From the NCBI GenBank assembly GCA_003557545.1, contig PWOD01000128.1, positions 1 through 17,878 on the forward strand: a stretch of 17,878 nucleotides of DNA, in the 5' to 3' direction. Positions within the stretch are counted from its first letter, which is position 1. Each line of letters opens with the position of its first letter. Source of the DNA: a bacterium (GTDB lineage: Bacteria > T1Sed10-126). Position numbers and translations under genes: made by a program. Shown piece by piece: positions 6,033 to 15,924 of this stretch. The notes under the pieces were generated by a model. It was given only the letters and a program-made list of their open reading frames with translations. It searched no databases and had not been told where the DNA came from.

Positions 6033-7289
6033 TTGCTTGTTGCAATTAAGACATTTGGTTGCCTGGTTAATAAGTCTGAGGAAGAAAAATTAAAAAGCCG
6101 GTTGATCGAGCAGGGTTTTGGGCTGACCTGGGACTGTAACAGGGCCGATATCTGTATTATTAATAGCTGCTGCATAACAACCAGCGCTGCCGCCAAAATC
6201 CGCAAAGAAATTCGTCGTGTCAGGCGGGATAACCCGACCGTGGAGTTGATCTTTACAGGGTGCTATGCAAAATTATTGAAGAATAAAGCTGCCGGGGTAG
6301 TTCACCAGGCAGACAAAATTATTTTTAACACAGATAAAACAGGGGTTGTTGAATATCTGAGTGCAAAATATTCAGCTTCAGCAGATTTGCACAAAAAAAG
6401 TTTCGACCGGCAGTTTAACACAAGGAAGTTTTTAAAAATCCAGGATGGTTGCCGGGAGTTTTGTGCTTATTGTATAGTCCCCTACGTCAGGACAAAGCTC
6501 TGGAGTCGTCCGGTGGAGGATATTCTGGAGCAGATTGATCGGTGGACTGCAGAAGAGTATAAGGAGATAGTCCTGACAGGGATTCACCTGGGAAATTATG
6601 GAAAGGAACAGAGTTCGGGGATAAATTTTCTGGAGTTACTTAAACGGATTGAACAAGCCTCTCCAAATTGCCGGATCAGGTTGAGTTCTGTTGAACCGCA
6701 GGATGTGACGGAGGAGTTGATTGAGCTGATTGCAACAAGTCAGACATTTTGTAATCAGATTTATTTGACAGTACAGAGTGGTTCAAACCGGGTTTTGGAG
6801 CGAATGGGGAGGGATTATAGAGGTGAAGATTTACTGCGGATCAAACAGAATTGTCAGAAATTTTCTCAAGAGATTTTTTTAAACGCTGATTTAATGGTTG
6901 GGTTTCCCGGGGAACGGGAGAATGATTTTGAACAGACTATGGAGATTGCTAAGAGTCTACAACTGGCCCGGGCTCATATTTTTCGATACAGTGATAGGCC
7001 GGGGACAGTGGCAAGTAGTTTAGATGACAGGGTAGAGGATAGGGTGAGCAAACAACGCAGCCGGCGGTTACACAAGTTATTAGAGCTGTTAGCCCAGCGC
7101 CAGGCTCTTAAACTGATTGGTCGGGAAGTGGAGATTATCGCGGAATATCAGGACGATTCAGGTTGTTGGTTTGGATACAGTGAACAATATCTGCCGGCCC
7201 GGTTGCCTGGTACGGCGCGACGTGGCGAGCTAATCAGAGGAACTGTTGAAGCTGTTGAACAGCAGCAGTTACTGGTGAGGAGGAATTGA
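6033..7289 (+). CDS. mtaB: tRNA (t6A37) methylthiotransferase MtaB, 418 aa
   Basis: A radical-SAM enzyme of the MiaB/RimO/MtaB family, which adds a methylthio group to N6-threonylcarbamoyladenosine at position 37 of ANN-decoding tRNAs. The N-terminal domain has the three cluster cysteines Cys10 (TFGC), Cys46 (NSC) and Cys77 (TGCYAK). The radical-SAM triad CxxxCxxC is Cys140, Cys144, Cys147. The sequence VLTGIHLGNYG near 180-190 is typical of the MtaB branch rather than MiaB or RimO. The C-terminal 60 residues look like a TRAM RNA-binding domain. The start is a TTG at 6033 with GGAG at 6021-6024; no better start precedes the conserved first strand. It heads the operon and overlaps the next gene by 4 nt. 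A TsaC-family gene further along may act on the same tRNA base. Confidence 0.9.
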   Translation: MLVAIKTFGCLVNKSEEEKLKSRLIEQGFGLTWDCNRADICIINSCCITTSAAAKIRKEIRRVRRDNPTVELIFTGCYAKLLKNKAAGVVHQADKIIFNTDKTGVVEYLSAKYSASADLHKKSFDRQFNTRKFLKIQDGCREFCAYCIVPYVRTKLWSRPVEDILEQIDRWTAEEYKEIVLTGIHLGNYGKEQSSGINFLELLKRIEQASPNCRIRLSSVEPQDVTEELIELIATSQTFCNQIYLTVQSGSNRVLERMGRDYRGEDLLRIKQNCQKFSQEIFLNADLMVGFPGERENDFEQTMEIAKSLQLARAHIFRYSDRPGTVASSLDDRVEDRVSKQRSRRLHKLLELLAQRQALKLIGREVEIIAEYQDDSGCWFGYSEQYLPARLPGTARRGELIRGTVEAVEQQQLLVRRN

Positions 7290-8662
7290 TTATTAATTAC
7301 CGGATAAAACTATTCTGGGGAGTGTTAGTAGTTATAGTGCTGGGGCTGGTGGTTTCGGGGGGACAGCTGTCTGCCGCCGATACGGAGCCGGAGCTAGTGG
7401 ATGTTGAACCGGAATTCTATGGTTATCCTCTGAAAATTTTTCGGGTGCTGGAAGCACAGCATCCATATCCAGAGTCAACCGGACTATTTGTCACGGAAGT
7501 GGATCCGGAATCTCCAGCGGGGCTGGCCCGCCTGGAACCGGAGCAAATAATCAAGAAAATTGATGGAGTAAAGATAAACCAGATGGATCAGGTGTTTGAA
7601 ATAGTTAATCGTAATCCGGGAGAAAAATTAAAATTTGAAGGGTATCGATTACGACCGAGTTATATTAAACGGCGCCGTGAGGACCCGTTTTTTGATTTTC
7701 GTGGTAGTGAACCCTATAGAAGGTTTGAATATGAAATAAGCTATCCCAGGAAATATGTGCCAGAACCTCAACCTGTGATAGTTCATCCGGAAGGGCAGCT
7801 GTATCATAAAACAGGGTTTGGTCACTCTCCAGACACGTCAACTGGAAAAGTTATAGAAAGTAGTGAAAAGGCCAGAGAGATGGGATATAGGCCCTGTCCT
7901 TTCTGCTTTCCCGGAGAAGCTGATAATGATCAGCAGGTAACAGAGCTGCTGGATGATCAGATACCTATCAGCTCCGGGGTGGCCGCGGAGTTGCAGGATG
8001 AGTTTGGAGTCGTTGAGGAACTTGATCCAGAGCTGGAGCGTTTAATCTCTGAGATTTTTCCGCAGCGTCTGAGATCGGAACTGGACCCGCAGATTGTTTT
8101 TCTTGATACGAATATATTTTATGGGTTTGGTTTACCTACCGGTGAGATTGTTATCTCCCGAGGGTTATGGGAATTTTTAGAATTTGAAAAACCACGAGCT
8201 TTTTTGTTGGTGACATTGCTGGGCCATCTGGATTTGCAACACTGGCCGGGATTGCCCGGAGAAGAGTATTTGTTCAGTACCATCAGGCGATGGCTAGATC
8301 GCTTAACCAGACAGATAAGTGGATTGGACCTGGGCCATCTGGAGCGGTTTGAACAGATGTTACCCGCTTATATACGGGCCAGCTACCGGGGAATAATGGA
8401 ACATGGGTACAGCGTGGAAGAGGAAAGAAGAGCCTACTTTATGGGTTTGGTATATTTACATCGGGCCGACCTGGATATGGAAGCCGTAGAATCTTATCTT
8501 GTAAAAGCCAGGGATATTCATAAGTTTCCCCAGGAGGGTCGCTTGAGTTATCGATTACAGCGGCCGTTTCCCAGCAATATAGAGAAGGAACTTAGTTATT
8601 GGAAAGATCTTATACCTGATCAGTTCGGGCGGGATAGTGAAAGCCATCCCGGACTCTGGTAG
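7286..8662 (+). CDS. exported PDZ protein with M48-like domain lacking HExxH, 458 aa
   Basis: An N-terminal hydrophobic segment (about 8-30) acts as signal peptide or anchor. A PDZ-like domain follows (about 55-125, with GLFVTEVDPESPAG at 66-79). Next is a small cysteine/histidine module: His174, His180 and, after a Gly-Tyr-Arg-Pro motif, Cys204 and Cys207, like short zinc-binding modules that end in GYRPCxxC. Residues 240-440 match the layout of an M48 zinc metallopeptidase (Asn-x-Phe-x-x-x-x-Leu-Pro-x-Gly-x-Ile-x-x-x-x-Gly-Leu near 276-294, then the helix that should carry HExxH). The zinc site is gone: GHLDLQH (313-319) replaces HExxH, and the later EAD-type ligand motif is RRAY (381-384). 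Translation starts at TTG 7286 beside a strong GAGGAGG, overlapping the mtaB stop. It is probably a non-catalytic envelope protein. Confidence 0.75.
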   Translation: MIINYRIKLFWGVLVVIVLGLVVSGGQLSAADTEPELVDVEPEFYGYPLKIFRVLEAQHPYPESTGLFVTEVDPESPAGLARLEPEQIIKKIDGVKINQMDQVFEIVNRNPGEKLKFEGYRLRPSYIKRRREDPFFDFRGSEPYRRFEYEISYPRKYVPEPQPVIVHPEGQLYHKTGFGHSPDTSTGKVIESSEKAREMGYRPCPFCFPGEADNDQQVTELLDDQIPISSGVAAELQDEFGVVEELDPELERLISEIFPQRLRSELDPQIVFLDTNIFYGFGLPTGEIVISRGLWEFLEFEKPRAFLLVTLLGHLDLQHWPGLPGEEYLFSTIRRWLDRLTRQISGLDLGHLERFEQMLPAYIRASYRGIMEHGYSVEEERRAYFMGLVYLHRADLDMEAVESYLVKARDIHKFPQEGRLSYRLQRPFPSNIEKELSYWKDLIPDQFGRDSESHPGLW

Positions 8663-8670
8663 GATAAAAG

Positions 8671-9717
8671 ATGAAGATAGCGGTTGTCGGGGAGAGTTTG
8701 GTCTCAGCCCTTCTGGCTCTCTATTTGAGCCAAAAAGCAGATTTAACATATTTTTCCTGCGGATCAAAATTTAATCGGCCACTAATACGCTTTCCACTGG
8801 TTGAGCAGTTTTCCCGTGAGGTTTTTTTAGAAGCAGAATCCGGACTGGAGTTGAGGACTGTCGGAGGACAGTTGGAAAAACTAATTGGTGGTCTGGCAGG
8901 TTGTCTTCAAATTGATCTCAGGGATAGTTCGGGTCTGTTGATTATGGGCCAGAAAGATAGCGTTAAGCCGGGAGATTTTCAGATGGATTTCAATGGTCTG
9001 GAAACAGAGCTATTAAAGGGGAAAAAACTTCGAAAACAGCAACCTTTTCTGGCAAATTTTATTCAGCGCGGGATCCGGTTAAGATCATTTGAAAAAATTG
9101 TTATTAATCGGCTTGATAAAAGATTGAAAAACAATTTACAGTTTTGCCCCGAGGGAAGACCGTTTTTGCCAGGCTCTAATCATGATTCTACCGGGGTGAT
9201 GGTTTCCCATCCCAATCTACCCTGTGGATCAGGGGAGTTTGACAGGTTTATTGGTCTGGGCGTTGGGGGGGCGGATTTGTTGAGTAGAAAGATGGTCGAC
9301 AGCGAATGGGATCTGGAACGTCAACCGTACATGGAGTTAAGGGTTCGGCAAACTAAAATATATGGCCCGGTTTTAACTGACCGGCTAACTATTTATCCGG
9401 ATGGCGAAGGATTTATCAGGATTGTTCATAATTCCCCTCTGTCAGGCCGAAGCCGGCAGGTTATGAGTTCTGAACTGTTGGAGATGTTGCATGGTTCCTA
9501 TGAACTTTTCCCGGGATTTTATGAGGAGGAATTTGTCGAAAGTAAGGTTAAATTGCGAGTCATTTGCAATAAAACCTGGCGTCCCGAAATTTCTGGAACG
9601 AGGAAACTTTTATTGATCAGTGACGGTGCAGCTTCAGAGTTGTATTTTTTGAACGATATTTTTCAGCAGATTGAGGAGGTATTATTCGGCAGTGATAGAA
9701 TTGAAATTAAACGGTGA
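8671..9717 (+). CDS. DAO/ThiO-like protein with degenerate FAD site, 348 aa
   Basis: The overall plan resembles FAD-dependent D-amino-acid-oxidase-fold proteins such as glycine oxidase ThiO. There is an N-terminal beta-alpha-beta start (KIAVVGESLVSALLALYLSQ, residues 2-21) and a C-terminal section whose Tyr-Pro-Asp-Gly-Glu-Gly strand and Pro-Gly-Phe helix correspond to the DAO substrate-domain pattern. The dinucleotide signature GxGxxG is not present (Gly-Glu-Ser-Leu-Val-Ser instead), and the usual C-terminal Gly-His-x-x-x-Gly FAD contact is missing. FAD binding is therefore doubtful. The gene sits directly before thiS and overlaps it by 26 nt, the place where thiO often lies, so a link to thiazole synthesis is inferred from position. 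An unrelated Rossmann-like protein is an alternative. Confidence 0.55.
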   Translation: MKIAVVGESLVSALLALYLSQKADLTYFSCGSKFNRPLIRFPLVEQFSREVFLEAESGLELRTVGGQLEKLIGGLAGCLQIDLRDSSGLLIMGQKDSVKPGDFQMDFNGLETELLKGKKLRKQQPFLANFIQRGIRLRSFEKIVINRLDKRLKNNLQFCPEGRPFLPGSNHDSTGVMVSHPNLPCGSGEFDRFIGLGVGGADLLSRKMVDSEWDLERQPYMELRVRQTKIYGPVLTDRLTIYPDGEGFIRIVHNSPLSGRSRQVMSSELLEMLHGSYELFPGFYEEEFVESKVKLRVICNKTWRPEISGTRKLLLISDGAASELYFLNDIFQQIEEVLFGSDRIEIKR

Positions 9718-10707: not shown

Positions 10708-11757
10708 GTGATTAAATCTATGTTGGTTAATTTTAAAATTCCTGATTTCATTGTCGTTGCTGCTGCCCGCCAGCAGCAGTCGGAGTCGAAAGCTGTTGCT
10801 GTGGTGCAAAACAATCGAGTTGTAGCGGTGAATGACAGAGCTCGTAGGCTGGGTCTGGAAATCGGAGAACTACCGGGAGAAGCCGATGACGGTATGGAAC
10901 TTCACCAGGTGGAGTTTGAGCTGAATGAGATTATCAAAAGAGATCGGGAACTGTTGCAGAATATTCACAAATTAAGTCCACTGGTGGAGCGGTTGAAGTT
11001 CGGTGAATACTTGATTGAACTAGTGGGTGATAGCTGTTTCGATTCCTGGTTTGAGTTGATTAAAAACGATTATCCGACCGCGACGGCCGGGATAGCAGCG
11101 AGTGGGTGGCTGGCTCATCTGATCTGCCGCTGCCAATCGCCGGGAATGATGGAGAAGGTTGACCGGGAAAACTATCGGGAGGCTCTCTGTGAAATACCGG
11201 TTAGCCAGTTGTGGGGCTTAGGCTCCGGAGTAGGGGGCCGCTTACAACAGGAGGGACTCTCTCGTCTGGGTGATTTTTTTGCTCTTCCCAAAGCCCGCCG
11301 CGAGGAACTGCTCGGGTCAGACAGTCAGCTCCTTGAGTTGATTTTACAGGGCCGAGATCCCAGGCCGTTAAATTGTTTTTCTAAACCTCGGGAGTTGAGC
11401 ACAAAACTGTCGTTAAAATCAATTGACGGTAACTTTGAAAAAGTTTTTGAAACTGTTGCTGCCAGATTAAAGAAAATTGTTGTTCGGCTGGAAGCTACCT
11501 CCAGCAGGGTTTATAGAATGAGGATTAAGCTTTGGGCAAAAGGACAAGTCGAGCAGACGAAAGCGGTGATTTTTCCCCGACCGGTAGCTAAAATTGAAGA
11601 GTTGAGATCCGGGTTGGAAGGTGTATGGAAAACCTTGAGCGCTGAAGCCGGTTATGAAGCGGTTGAACTATTAATGGATGGTGTTATAAGTGATCTGGAA
11701 AATTATCATAAATTTCAGCAGAGCAGTATTGAACAATTGGAGATTGTTGACAACTAA
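10708..11757 (+). CDS. degenerate Y-family DNA polymerase-like protein, 349 aa
   Basis: The architecture follows DinB/ImuB proteins. There is a palm/fingers region (about 1-160) with Lys-Ala-Val-Ala-Val and Ala-Arg-x-Leu-Gly matching the usual KPVAV and ARxxGV, a helix-hairpin-helix thumb (about 162-203, GLGSGVGGRLQQEGLSRLGD) and a little-finger-like domain (about 225-330). The catalytic acids are gone: the first motif (usually DxDAFF) reads Val-Asn-Phe-Lys-Ile-Pro-Asp-Phe, and the SxDEAxLD motif reads Lys-Phe-Gly-Glu-Tyr-Leu-Ile-Glu. Polymerase activity is therefore unlikely, as in ImuB. Neither imuA/dnaE2 nor lexA-like sites are seen nearby. A C-terminal Gln-Leu-Glu-Ile could be a weak beta-clamp motif. 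The start is GTG 10708 or ATG 10720. Its place in a thiamine/RNA-modification operon is unexplained. Confidence 0.7.
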   Translation: MIKSMLVNFKIPDFIVVAAARQQQSESKAVAVVQNNRVVAVNDRARRLGLEIGELPGEADDGMELHQVEFELNEIIKRDRELLQNIHKLSPLVERLKFGEYLIELVGDSCFDSWFELIKNDYPTATAGIAASGWLAHLICRCQSPGMMEKVDRENYREALCEIPVSQLWGLGSGVGGRLQQEGLSRLGDFFALPKARREELLGSDSQLLELILQGRDPRPLNCFSKPRELSTKLSLKSIDGNFEKVFETVAARLKKIVVRLEATSSRVYRMRIKLWAKGQVEQTKAVIFPRPVAKIEELRSGLEGVWKTLSAEAGYEAVELLMDGVISDLENYHKFQQSSIEQLEIVDN

Positions 11758-12859
11758 AAGCAGTTTTTTACTGCTGTTCGGTATCTTTTTCCTGGGATTG
11801 GGCAGCAGTGCAGTTGAGGCTGAGACAGCGTTGTTTAATATTTATAGCGATACAGAGTATGAGCAGATCGAACAGCAAGTCACAGGTGAACTGACCGGGT
11901 TAAAAGAGTTTGATGAAAAACGCCTGTTACGACTTTATAAAACAGCCGATTCGAGAGGAGAGTCGGAGGCTGCAAGAAACTATCTGCTGGCACTGCTTGA
12001 TCGTGATCTACAGGAGTTTGAGTGGTTAAATCCAGTCACTGTTCATCGGATTGCCGGACTGTTCTTTTATCAGTATGAGGATTATTTGCGTGCCTACCAG
12101 GCATTTAGAAAATCAGCTGAATTGTCCAAAACAGAGTTGGAGAAAGAAAATTTAAAAGGCTGGAGCCGCCGTTCATTAGATAATTTCAACCGCCGCTTAG
12201 AGAGTGATCCCGAGGGAACGGTTAAACAGCTGTTTGTTCCGTTAAAAGCCTCTCTGGAACAGGGCAAAACAGCTTTTGTTCTGGAGAAAATAACACAGCA
12301 TCAGGAGAAGTTTGACGGCGTTTTTGAGTTTGACCGGTTGGTTGGGGTGGTTAGGTATCATCAGGCTTTTGAAAGCTGGTTGGACAGGGTGATTGAGGCG
12401 GATAACAGTACTGGCCGAGAAGTTTTGAACGAGCTTCTGGAGGAGGGTTGGAACTATTATTCTCAACCGGACTATCAAAGGCTGGCCGGGGAGGCGCAGG
12501 GGCGAGTATTTTATTTACTTGGCTCGAAGCGATTTGTTGCTGGTGAACAGCAGGAGGCTTTTAATGATTGGTTGAGAGCTCAAGCGTTTTCTGAGAACGA
12601 GCGACCGGAAATTATTCAAAAACAGGCGAATTTTTTTTATTTACAGGGTGACTATCAGCGAACCCGGGAAAAACTGGCCCGACTCGCTGCTACCTACCCT
12701 GAGTTTGATATAGCCCCGGGGCTCATCTGGTTCACACATTTTCGTGCCAATCAGACAGTGATAGTCCTGGTTCTGCTGCTGATTGGATTGTTCGGTATTA
12801 GCGCTTTTTTTCTCAGGGCATTTCAGCAAAACAAAGTGGAAGAATCATCTGATGAGTAA
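11747..12859 (+). CDS. exported TPR-like protein with C-terminal membrane segment, about 370 aa
   Basis: I recognise no named family. From the preferred TTG start at 11747 the protein opens with a signal peptide (hydrophobic run Phe-Leu-Leu-Leu-Phe-Gly-Ile-Phe-Phe-Leu, cleavage near Ala-Val-Glu-Ala). The body is helical and charged, with tandem helix pairs and aromatic/Ala spacing like tetratricopeptide repeats (for example Tyr-Arg-Ala-Tyr-Gln-Ala-Phe and Tyr-Leu-Gln-Gly-Asp-Tyr-Gln-Arg). Near the C-terminus is one strong transmembrane segment (about 20 residues, Val/Leu/Ile-rich), then a short charged tail. It should therefore be anchored in the inner membrane with its helical domain outside. 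GGAG (11739-11742) lies 4 nt before this TTG; an ATG at 11690 would give a longer overlap with the polymerase-like gene. It may act as an envelope scaffold, perhaps with the PDZ protein. Confidence 0.7.
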   Translation: MTTKSSFLLLFGIFFLGLGSSAVEAETALFNIYSDTEYEQIEQQVTGELTGLKEFDEKRLLRLYKTADSRGESEAARNYLLALLDRDLQEFEWLNPVTVHRIAGLFFYQYEDYLRAYQAFRKSAELSKTELEKENLKGWSRRSLDNFNRRLESDPEGTVKQLFVPLKASLEQGKTAFVLEKITQHQEKFDGVFEFDRLVGVVRYHQAFESWLDRVIEADNSTGREVLNELLEEGWNYYSQPDYQRLAGEAQGRVFYLLGSKRFVAGEQQEAFNDWLRAQAFSENERPEIIQKQANFFYLQGDYQRTREKLARLAATYPEFDIAPGLIWFTHFRANQTVIVLVLLLIGLFGISAFFLRAFQQNKVEESSDE

Positions 12860-14871: not shown

Positions 14872-15924
14872 ATGGAAATTATTTTAGGTGCTGACCATGC
14901 TGGATATGAATATAAAGAAGCGATCAAAGAATATTTATTGAAACGTGGCGATCTGGTTGAGGATATGGGGGCAACATCTAAGGAACCCAGTGATTATCCC
15001 GATTTCGCCCGGCCAGTGGTGGAAAGGTTAGTTTTTTCTAATGAACGTCGGGCAATTTTAATCTGTGGTAGTGGTGTTGGTATGTCAATTGTGGCAAACC
15101 GCTGCCGGGGGGTTCGGGCCGGCCGTTGTTTGACTGTCGAAGAGGTCAAAAAAGCTCGTCAACATAATGATATTAACTGTCTCACACTCGCTTCAAGGGG
15201 TATTTCTGTGGAACAGGCTGTGGAGTTGACAGAGGCTTTTTTAACCACGGAGTTTGAGGGGGGGCGGCATATAAAACGTCTAAAAAAGATCGATACACCC
15301 CCGGTGCAGGTGGTTAAGCATCCTCTGGTTCAAACTAAATTGACGCAGTTGAGAGACAGGGCAACCTCCAAAAAAGAGTTTCGAGAACTGATTGGCGAAT
15401 TAACTGGATTAATGTTTTATGAAGCGACCCGAAGCTGTCCGACAACTGAAAAGATTGTTGAAACACCACTGCAAAAAGCTGAGGGTAGAGAACTGTTGCA
15501 GCGGATAGTTATCGTACCGATTTTACGGGCCGGATTGGGTATGGTCGATCCGATTTTGAAACTTGTTCCCACAGCCAAGGTCGGGCATGTGGGATTGTAT
15601 CGTGATGAAACCAGTCTTGAACCTGTTGAATATTATCTGAAAGTTCCAGAAAATGTTGGCGAATGCATGGTGCTTTTCCTTGATCCTATGCTGGCCACGG
15701 GTGGTTCGGCGGTCAAGGCTCTCAGTCTGCTGAAAGAAAAGGGATTTAATAATGGATTACGATTTCTCTGTCTTGTGGCTGCTCCTGAAGGAATAGCGGC
15801 TTTGCAGGAGAATCATCCTGATGTGTCGATCTATACAGCTGCTGTTGATGAGCGGCTGAATTCCAGGGGCTATATAATACCTGGTCTGGGTGATGCCGGC
15901 GATCGGCTGTTCGGGACGGTTTAG
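14872..15924 (+). CDS. rpiB-upp: fused ribose-5-phosphate isomerase B / uracil phosphoribosyltransferase, 350 aa
   Basis: Two complete enzymes in one chain. Residues 1-143 are RpiB, which interconverts ribose 5-phosphate and ribulose 5-phosphate: Asp8-His9-Ala-Gly, Asp-Tyr-Pro-Asp-Phe-Ala (41-46), catalytic Cys65 in CGSGVGMS and His-Asn-Asp (98-100). Residues 146-350 are Upp, which converts uracil and PRPP to UMP: the PRPP loop [10 protein letters not shown] is at 270-279 and the uracil-binding C-terminal [17 protein letters not shown] at 333-349. The junction (about 141-150) is only a few residues long, and the reading frame is continuous with no internal stop. In many genomes rpiB and upp are separate near neighbours. 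The ATG at 14872 has AAAGGAG upstream, and the stop abuts the ispE start. Confidence 0.95.

Follow-up and report, generated by a model that had tools for sequence, protein, structure and literature searches.

M48 metallopeptidases such as Escherichia coli BepA combine assembly-promoting and degrading roles, and what sets these apart has yet to be settled. If an M48-type protein without the cutting half were conserved, binding on its own would be shown to be of use, and such a protein would provide a tool to test this. The locus described here raises the question of whether such a protein exists, because it encodes a frame in which a PDZ-like domain and a small Cys/His module precede a region resembling an M48 peptidase without HExxH. 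We asked whether this region descends from M48, which catalytic residues it has lost, whether the gene is maintained by selection and what the protein may do.

A conserved gene order in Candidatus Busufiota

The window (the whole stretch of DNA analysed, 17,878 nucleotides) is contig C188 from a 2.15-Mb genome of phylum T1Sed10-126. This fits the GTDB phylum also called Candidatus Busufiota, for which two genomes are listed, both 2.15-2.2 Mb in size and recovered from the sediment of hypersaline soda lakes (PMC11382960). It was represented in all comparisons by two genomes, that of the window and G001, which belongs to another genus. The frame of interest and its neighbours are:

6033..7289, forward strand: mtaB, tRNA methylthiotransferase (TIGR01579, 374 bits), overlapping the following frame by 4 nt
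7286..8662, forward strand: open reading frame of 458 aa with PDZ, HHCC module and degenerate M48 domain (pseudo-M48)
8671..9717, forward strand: 348-aa open reading frame without a family match, beginning 8 nt after the pseudo-M48 frame
G001, L016 3649-5058: single known ortholog of the pseudo-M48 frame, 55% identical, with the same catalytic losses

An earlier note on this DNA had placed the frame at 7286-8662 and the open reading frame call agreed, with an uncertain start: the TTG at 7286 lies only 2 nt past a GGAGG, and an ATT at 7289 is possible. The order mtaB, pseudo-M48, 348-aa frame is identical in G001. The 348-aa frame had no Pfam or NCBIfam match and its N-terminus resembles an FAD/NAD-binding protein; it is retained beside pseudo-M48 and thiG in both genera, yet is only 26% identical between them.

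Probable signal peptide, PDZ domain and HHCC module

Four regions were distinguished along the protein:

7286..7378, forward strand: probable Sec signal peptide, cleavage at about A31/D32
7433..7651, forward strand: HtrA-like PDZ domain, residues 50-122
7766..7918, forward strand: small zinc-type module, residues 161-211, ligands H174, H180, C204 and C207
7964..8614, forward strand: degenerate M48 (gluzincin-type) domain, residues 227-443

Inspection of the N-terminus revealed a hydrophobic stretch followed by a good signal-peptidase site (SAA/D; AVA/EE in the ortholog, within AVAVA/EE), making a cleavable signal peptide likelier than the signal anchor proposed earlier and suggesting that the protein is exported. 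Both genomes of the phylum encode an Omp85 of BamA type, and therefore the host cell envelope is probably double.

The PDZ-like domain proposed in the earlier note was recovered, as residues 50-122 matched the PDZ domains of DegP and DegQ in the PDB (E about 1e-5) and the PDZ_6 profile with an E-value of 1.9e-5, at 24.7 bits below the Pfam gathering cut-off of 27. The proposed Cys/His metal-binding module was also upheld: H174, H180, C204 and C207 were unchanged in all six M48-linked modules aligned, and the module is the best conserved part of the protein (76% identity between genera). It shares the H...C..C layout and spacing of Ada-type zinc modules (PF02805) and similar small envelope modules. 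However, Ada-type modules have Cys at the second ligand and no Phe after CxxC, whereas the HHCC module has a second His and a Phe at these places; the Ada_Zn_binding profile scored the two proteins at 13.3 and 15.1 bits, short of its cut-off at 23, and its CCCC ligand set is replaced by H, H, C, C. Generic modules retrieved with an HHCC-module profile likewise lacked the second-ligand His and the post-CxxC Phe. The invariant ligands are consistent with zinc binding by the module.

The C-terminal domain descends from M48

The Pfam M48 profile (PF01435) gave 12 bits for the window protein against a cut-off of 20.3 (E 0.19), and no M48 domain was reported for the ortholog. In a profile-profile comparison with hhalign, the two orthologs together were set against 12 intact M48s, which aligned 181 columns with an E-value of 1.3e-12 and a probability of 97.7. 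The score of 90 lay well above the maxima of 300 column shuffles (26.5) and 200 block shuffles (35). A search with the profile of the 12 intact M48s gave 38 bits for the frame, and the other window frames tested scored 0 bits or less. A structure model of residues 227-458, built on an alignment that included ten intact M48 rows, reached a pLDDT of 76 and a pTM of 0.73, and matched a Geobacter sulfurreducens M48 peptidase (Q74D82, PDB 3c37; Z 15.1 over 171 residues) and BepA (Z 14.9 over 176 residues) far above the remaining matches. The model leans on these intact rows and is to that extent circular, the two orthologs alone giving a pLDDT of 37. Q74D82, the nearest solved fold, has an intact zinc site and neither a PDZ domain nor an HHCC module.

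Common descent with M48 is thus well supported by profile comparison and modelling, and the M48-like domain without HExxH that had been proposed is borne out, including in the fold search (with the intact rows in the alignment) and despite the sub-threshold Pfam score. That the resemblance is due to chance and the domain has another helical fold, as the Pfam E-value and the missing ortholog match might suggest, is scarcely credible against the shuffle-controlled profile comparison, the 38-bit match and the fold matches.

Loss of the catalytic residues

In BepA the zinc ligands are H136, H140, E201 and the plug residue H246, the last within the HPx4R active-site plug (PMC7950410, where the plug is defined). 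BepA residues were mapped onto the window protein through a PDB alignment and a new alignment, taking as hallmarks the ten positions invariant across 35 intact M48s. The corresponding regions are:

8120..8155, forward strand: predicted edge-strand region, residues 279-290, with Tyr279 at the position of M48 Asn105 (alignment to BepA)
8213..8227, forward strand: T310-L311-L312-G313-H314 in place of HExxH, retaining the second His but neither the first His nor the catalytic Glu
8240..8242, forward strand: H319, a kept M48-conserved His at the BepA H145 position (alignment)
8423..8437, forward strand: E380-R-R-A-Y384, third-ligand Glu kept and Asp lost (aligned to BepA E201 and D205)
8561..8581, forward strand: degenerate HPx4R plug, R426-P427-x4-I432, aligned as RPx4I in both orthologs

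Both orthologs have lost the same six of the ten hallmarks (N105 to Tyr, H136 to Thr, E137 to Leu, D205 to Tyr or Leu, H246 to Arg and R252 to Ile), while H140, H145, E201 and P247 are kept. The string TLLGH is identical in the ortholog. With no general base, and with two zinc-binding His residues missing (one catalytic, the other in the plug), canonical catalysis should be impossible and has almost certainly been lost; residual catalysis is presumably lacking altogether, and weak metal binding at the kept residues is possible.

This mapping corrects the earlier account in detail. There, GHLDLQH was given as the replacement of HExxH; the true counterpart is T310-L-L-G-H314, and the quoted string begins one residue before the second His. 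Loss of the third zinc ligand to RRAY was dropped once BepA numbering had been mapped, since E380 corresponds to E201, the leading Glu in the BepA string E-Q-E-A-D, whereas R382 and Y384 stand in for the second Glu of that string, which is no ligand, and for its Asp. The Asn of an N-x-F motif (NIF) was similarly abandoned as the M48 edge-strand Asn, the homologous position being Y279. The description of a domain without its zinc site is accurate for the first His and the plug His, but the second His (H314) and the third-ligand Glu (E380) remain. Some alignments placed the plug His-Pro at F414-P415 rather than R426-P427; the window protein has no His at either place.

Compared with BepA (YfgC), a periplasmic M48 protein to which the window protein is also likened in location, the two have in common a gluzincin-type M48 domain, the second His, the third-ligand Glu and the plug Pro. 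HExxH, the His plug (HPx4R) and the C-terminal TPR of BepA are all absent from the window protein, which unlike BepA carries an N-terminal PDZ domain and an HHCC module.

The gene is maintained by selection

Between the two genera pseudo-M48 is 55% identical, compared with 49% for MtaB, 26-30% for three less-known neighbours, 66% for RsmI and 79% for ThiG; dN is about 0.4 and dS is saturated. Within the M48 domain, the active-site helix (69% identical) and the edge strand (68%) exceed the domain average, and the helix together with an insert, HxDLQHxPGxPGEEYLF, is among the best conserved stretches. Because the identity exceeds that of MtaB, these comparisons support a gene under purifying selection rather than one that is decaying. 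In an M48 tree the two orthologs share a stem about 4 changes per column long, and their own tips are short (about 0.5), which suggests that the catalytic losses predate the split of the two genera and that constraint has been renewed since. The long stem might be expected of a functionless M48 remnant in decay, but we consider this very improbable given the full-length frame and the same gene order in two genera, the 55% identity with dN far below dS, and the short branches after the split.

An ortholog with an intact HExxH had been named in the earlier note as one finding that would speak against a pseudopeptidase. The single known ortholog, from the other genus, shows the same losses, and HExxH is present in distant module-bearing relatives. 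The absence of the catalytic Glu and first His from both orthologs, together with purifying selection (dN about 0.4), supports the reading of the protein as an M48-derived pseudopeptidase.

Relatives and distribution of the architecture

Single-protein and two-row scans of genome and viral contigs found only the G001 ortholog, plasmids gave no match, and full-length matches among 386 diverse genomes were confined to the two orthologs. Within the limits of the search patterns and samples, the combination of signal peptide, PDZ, HHCC module and M48 thus appears only in phylum T1Sed10-126, as the search for the same domain order elsewhere indicated. The earlier statement that no described family has this combination holds for the three domains together; pairs of PDZ with M48 and of HHCC module with M48 do exist, with intact catalytic sites.

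HHCC modules directly precede intact M48 domains in each of the three genomes from a second phylum (L027-L029) and in several of a third (L062, L115, L116). The window protein shares with these the module H-x5-H ... C[PT]xCF immediately before the M48 domain; unlike it, they have an intact HExxH, third Glu and HPx4R, and no Pfam PDZ match was found in them where scanned. Two further HHCC-module M48 proteins of the third phylum, that of G025 (L117, L118), keep HExxH but no longer have the plug His, and Q and V respectively occupy the place of the third ligand. Their partial erosion is separate from that of the window protein, which loses HExxH and the plug His and keeps the third ligand.

A PDZ domain lies N-terminal to an intact M48 domain in L104 and L093 (PDZ_6 1e-8, M48 7e-24), the same order as in the window protein; these differ from it in having an intact zinc site and no HHCC module, and are distant in the M48 tree. 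Both are contigs of the viral collection, where they may represent host DNA or carried genes.

A single clade of the HHCC-module M48s and the window pair was neither supported nor rejected (p-AU 0.155), with weak placement on a long branch, and the topology does not settle the intact source lineage of the window protein. We tentatively suggest, as a possible though doubtful history, that HHCC-module M48s form an undescribed group in which the catalytic site was lost by different routes, with the window protein as its most eroded member, and that a PDZ domain gained in Ca. Busufiota would have yielded an envelope factor dedicated to chaperoning or sorting without proteolysis, nature's equivalent of the engineered protease-dead BepA. 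The group, with its intact and partly eroded members, offers a series for tracing the passage from envelope protease to pseudoenzyme. The window protein can be described as an M48-family pseudoenzyme whose set of domains is unusual and whose phylum is little studied.

Possible functions

The proposal that this is a secreted envelope pseudopeptidase, which binds and holds or sorts clients without cutting them, we regard as evenly poised between right and wrong. The signal peptide would export the protein, the HtrA-like PDZ domain would probably bind exposed C-termini of client proteins, and the HHCC module would serve as a structural or interaction element stabilised by zinc. An extended client segment would then be held by the groove and edge strand of the M48-type domain, uncut because that domain lacks the general-base Glu, the first zinc His and the plug His. 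Most likely the protein would act in envelope protein quality control, as a holder or as an adaptor for sorting, a role suggested by its strong conservation; peptide binding, the sorting role and the identity of clients are inferred. The Omp85 of BamA type and the separate intact M48 in both genomes fit this reading.

Loss of catalysis need not stop an M48 protein from engaging clients, because protease-dead BepA E137Q has been used to trap LptD contacts and keeps part of the assembly-promoting effect, being dominant negative (PMC8423444, PMC7950410). The BepA edge strand is required for both degradation and the chaperone-like effect, some of which E137Q keeps (PMC8423444). Plant FtsHi and other pseudo-metallopeptidases (PMC8197885, PMC11266112), although from unrelated families, have likewise lost metallopeptidase residues and conserved a function; the term M48 is absent from the main text of a 2024 review of pseudo-metallopeptidases.

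Several observations count against the client-holder reading. For LptD, the client classically associated with BepA, the match is weak or missing, and only two sequences with the full architecture are known. No neighbouring gene indicated envelope quality control, mtaB, thiG and rsmI being housekeeping genes. The sub-threshold Pfam score of the PDZ domain and the dependence of the structure model on intact M48 rows weigh on the same side. The kept second His and third-ligand Glu count against a dead enzyme, leaving room for metal binding or odd chemistry.

Alternatively, the protein might be a regulatory pseudo-subunit: bound to the cell's own active M48 or to a different envelope protease, it would govern how active that enzyme is or which clients it takes, as many pseudoenzymes do. 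Among pseudo-metallopeptidases, regulation of active relatives and scaffolding of complexes are frequent (PMC11266112), and both genomes encode at least one separate, intact secreted M48 (L002, L012). In both, however, that gene is unlinked to pseudo-M48 and lies on a different contig, and we consider this alternative unlikely.

A residual metalloenzyme, with an altered metal site of different chemistry or specificity built from H314 and E380 and perhaps also H319, D316 or E326/E327, is decidedly unlikely. Both genera have kept the second His, the extra His and the Glu of the third ligand, along with the helix and insert described above, but this conservation could be structural; with Leu as general base and Thr as first His in both proteins, the gluzincin mechanism cannot run.

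Other features of the genomes

At window positions 10708-11757 lies a 349-aa Y-family polymerase-like (IMS) protein with a weak Pfam match and 29% identity across genera, which may be a non-catalytic ImuB-like protein. A TPR-like membrane protein has 389 aa in the window (11690-12859) and 854 aa in the other genus (L016 8659-11223). Positions 14872-15924 form one frame in which, by eye, an RpiB/LacA-type isomerase is fused to a uracil phosphoribosyltransferase, an unusual fusion. Elsewhere in the window genome, a DUF3108-like secreted protein (by eye) is followed by an intact M48 (L002 404-2535); the same gene pair occurs in two genomes from another phylum (L030 and L031), and a functional link between its members is possible.
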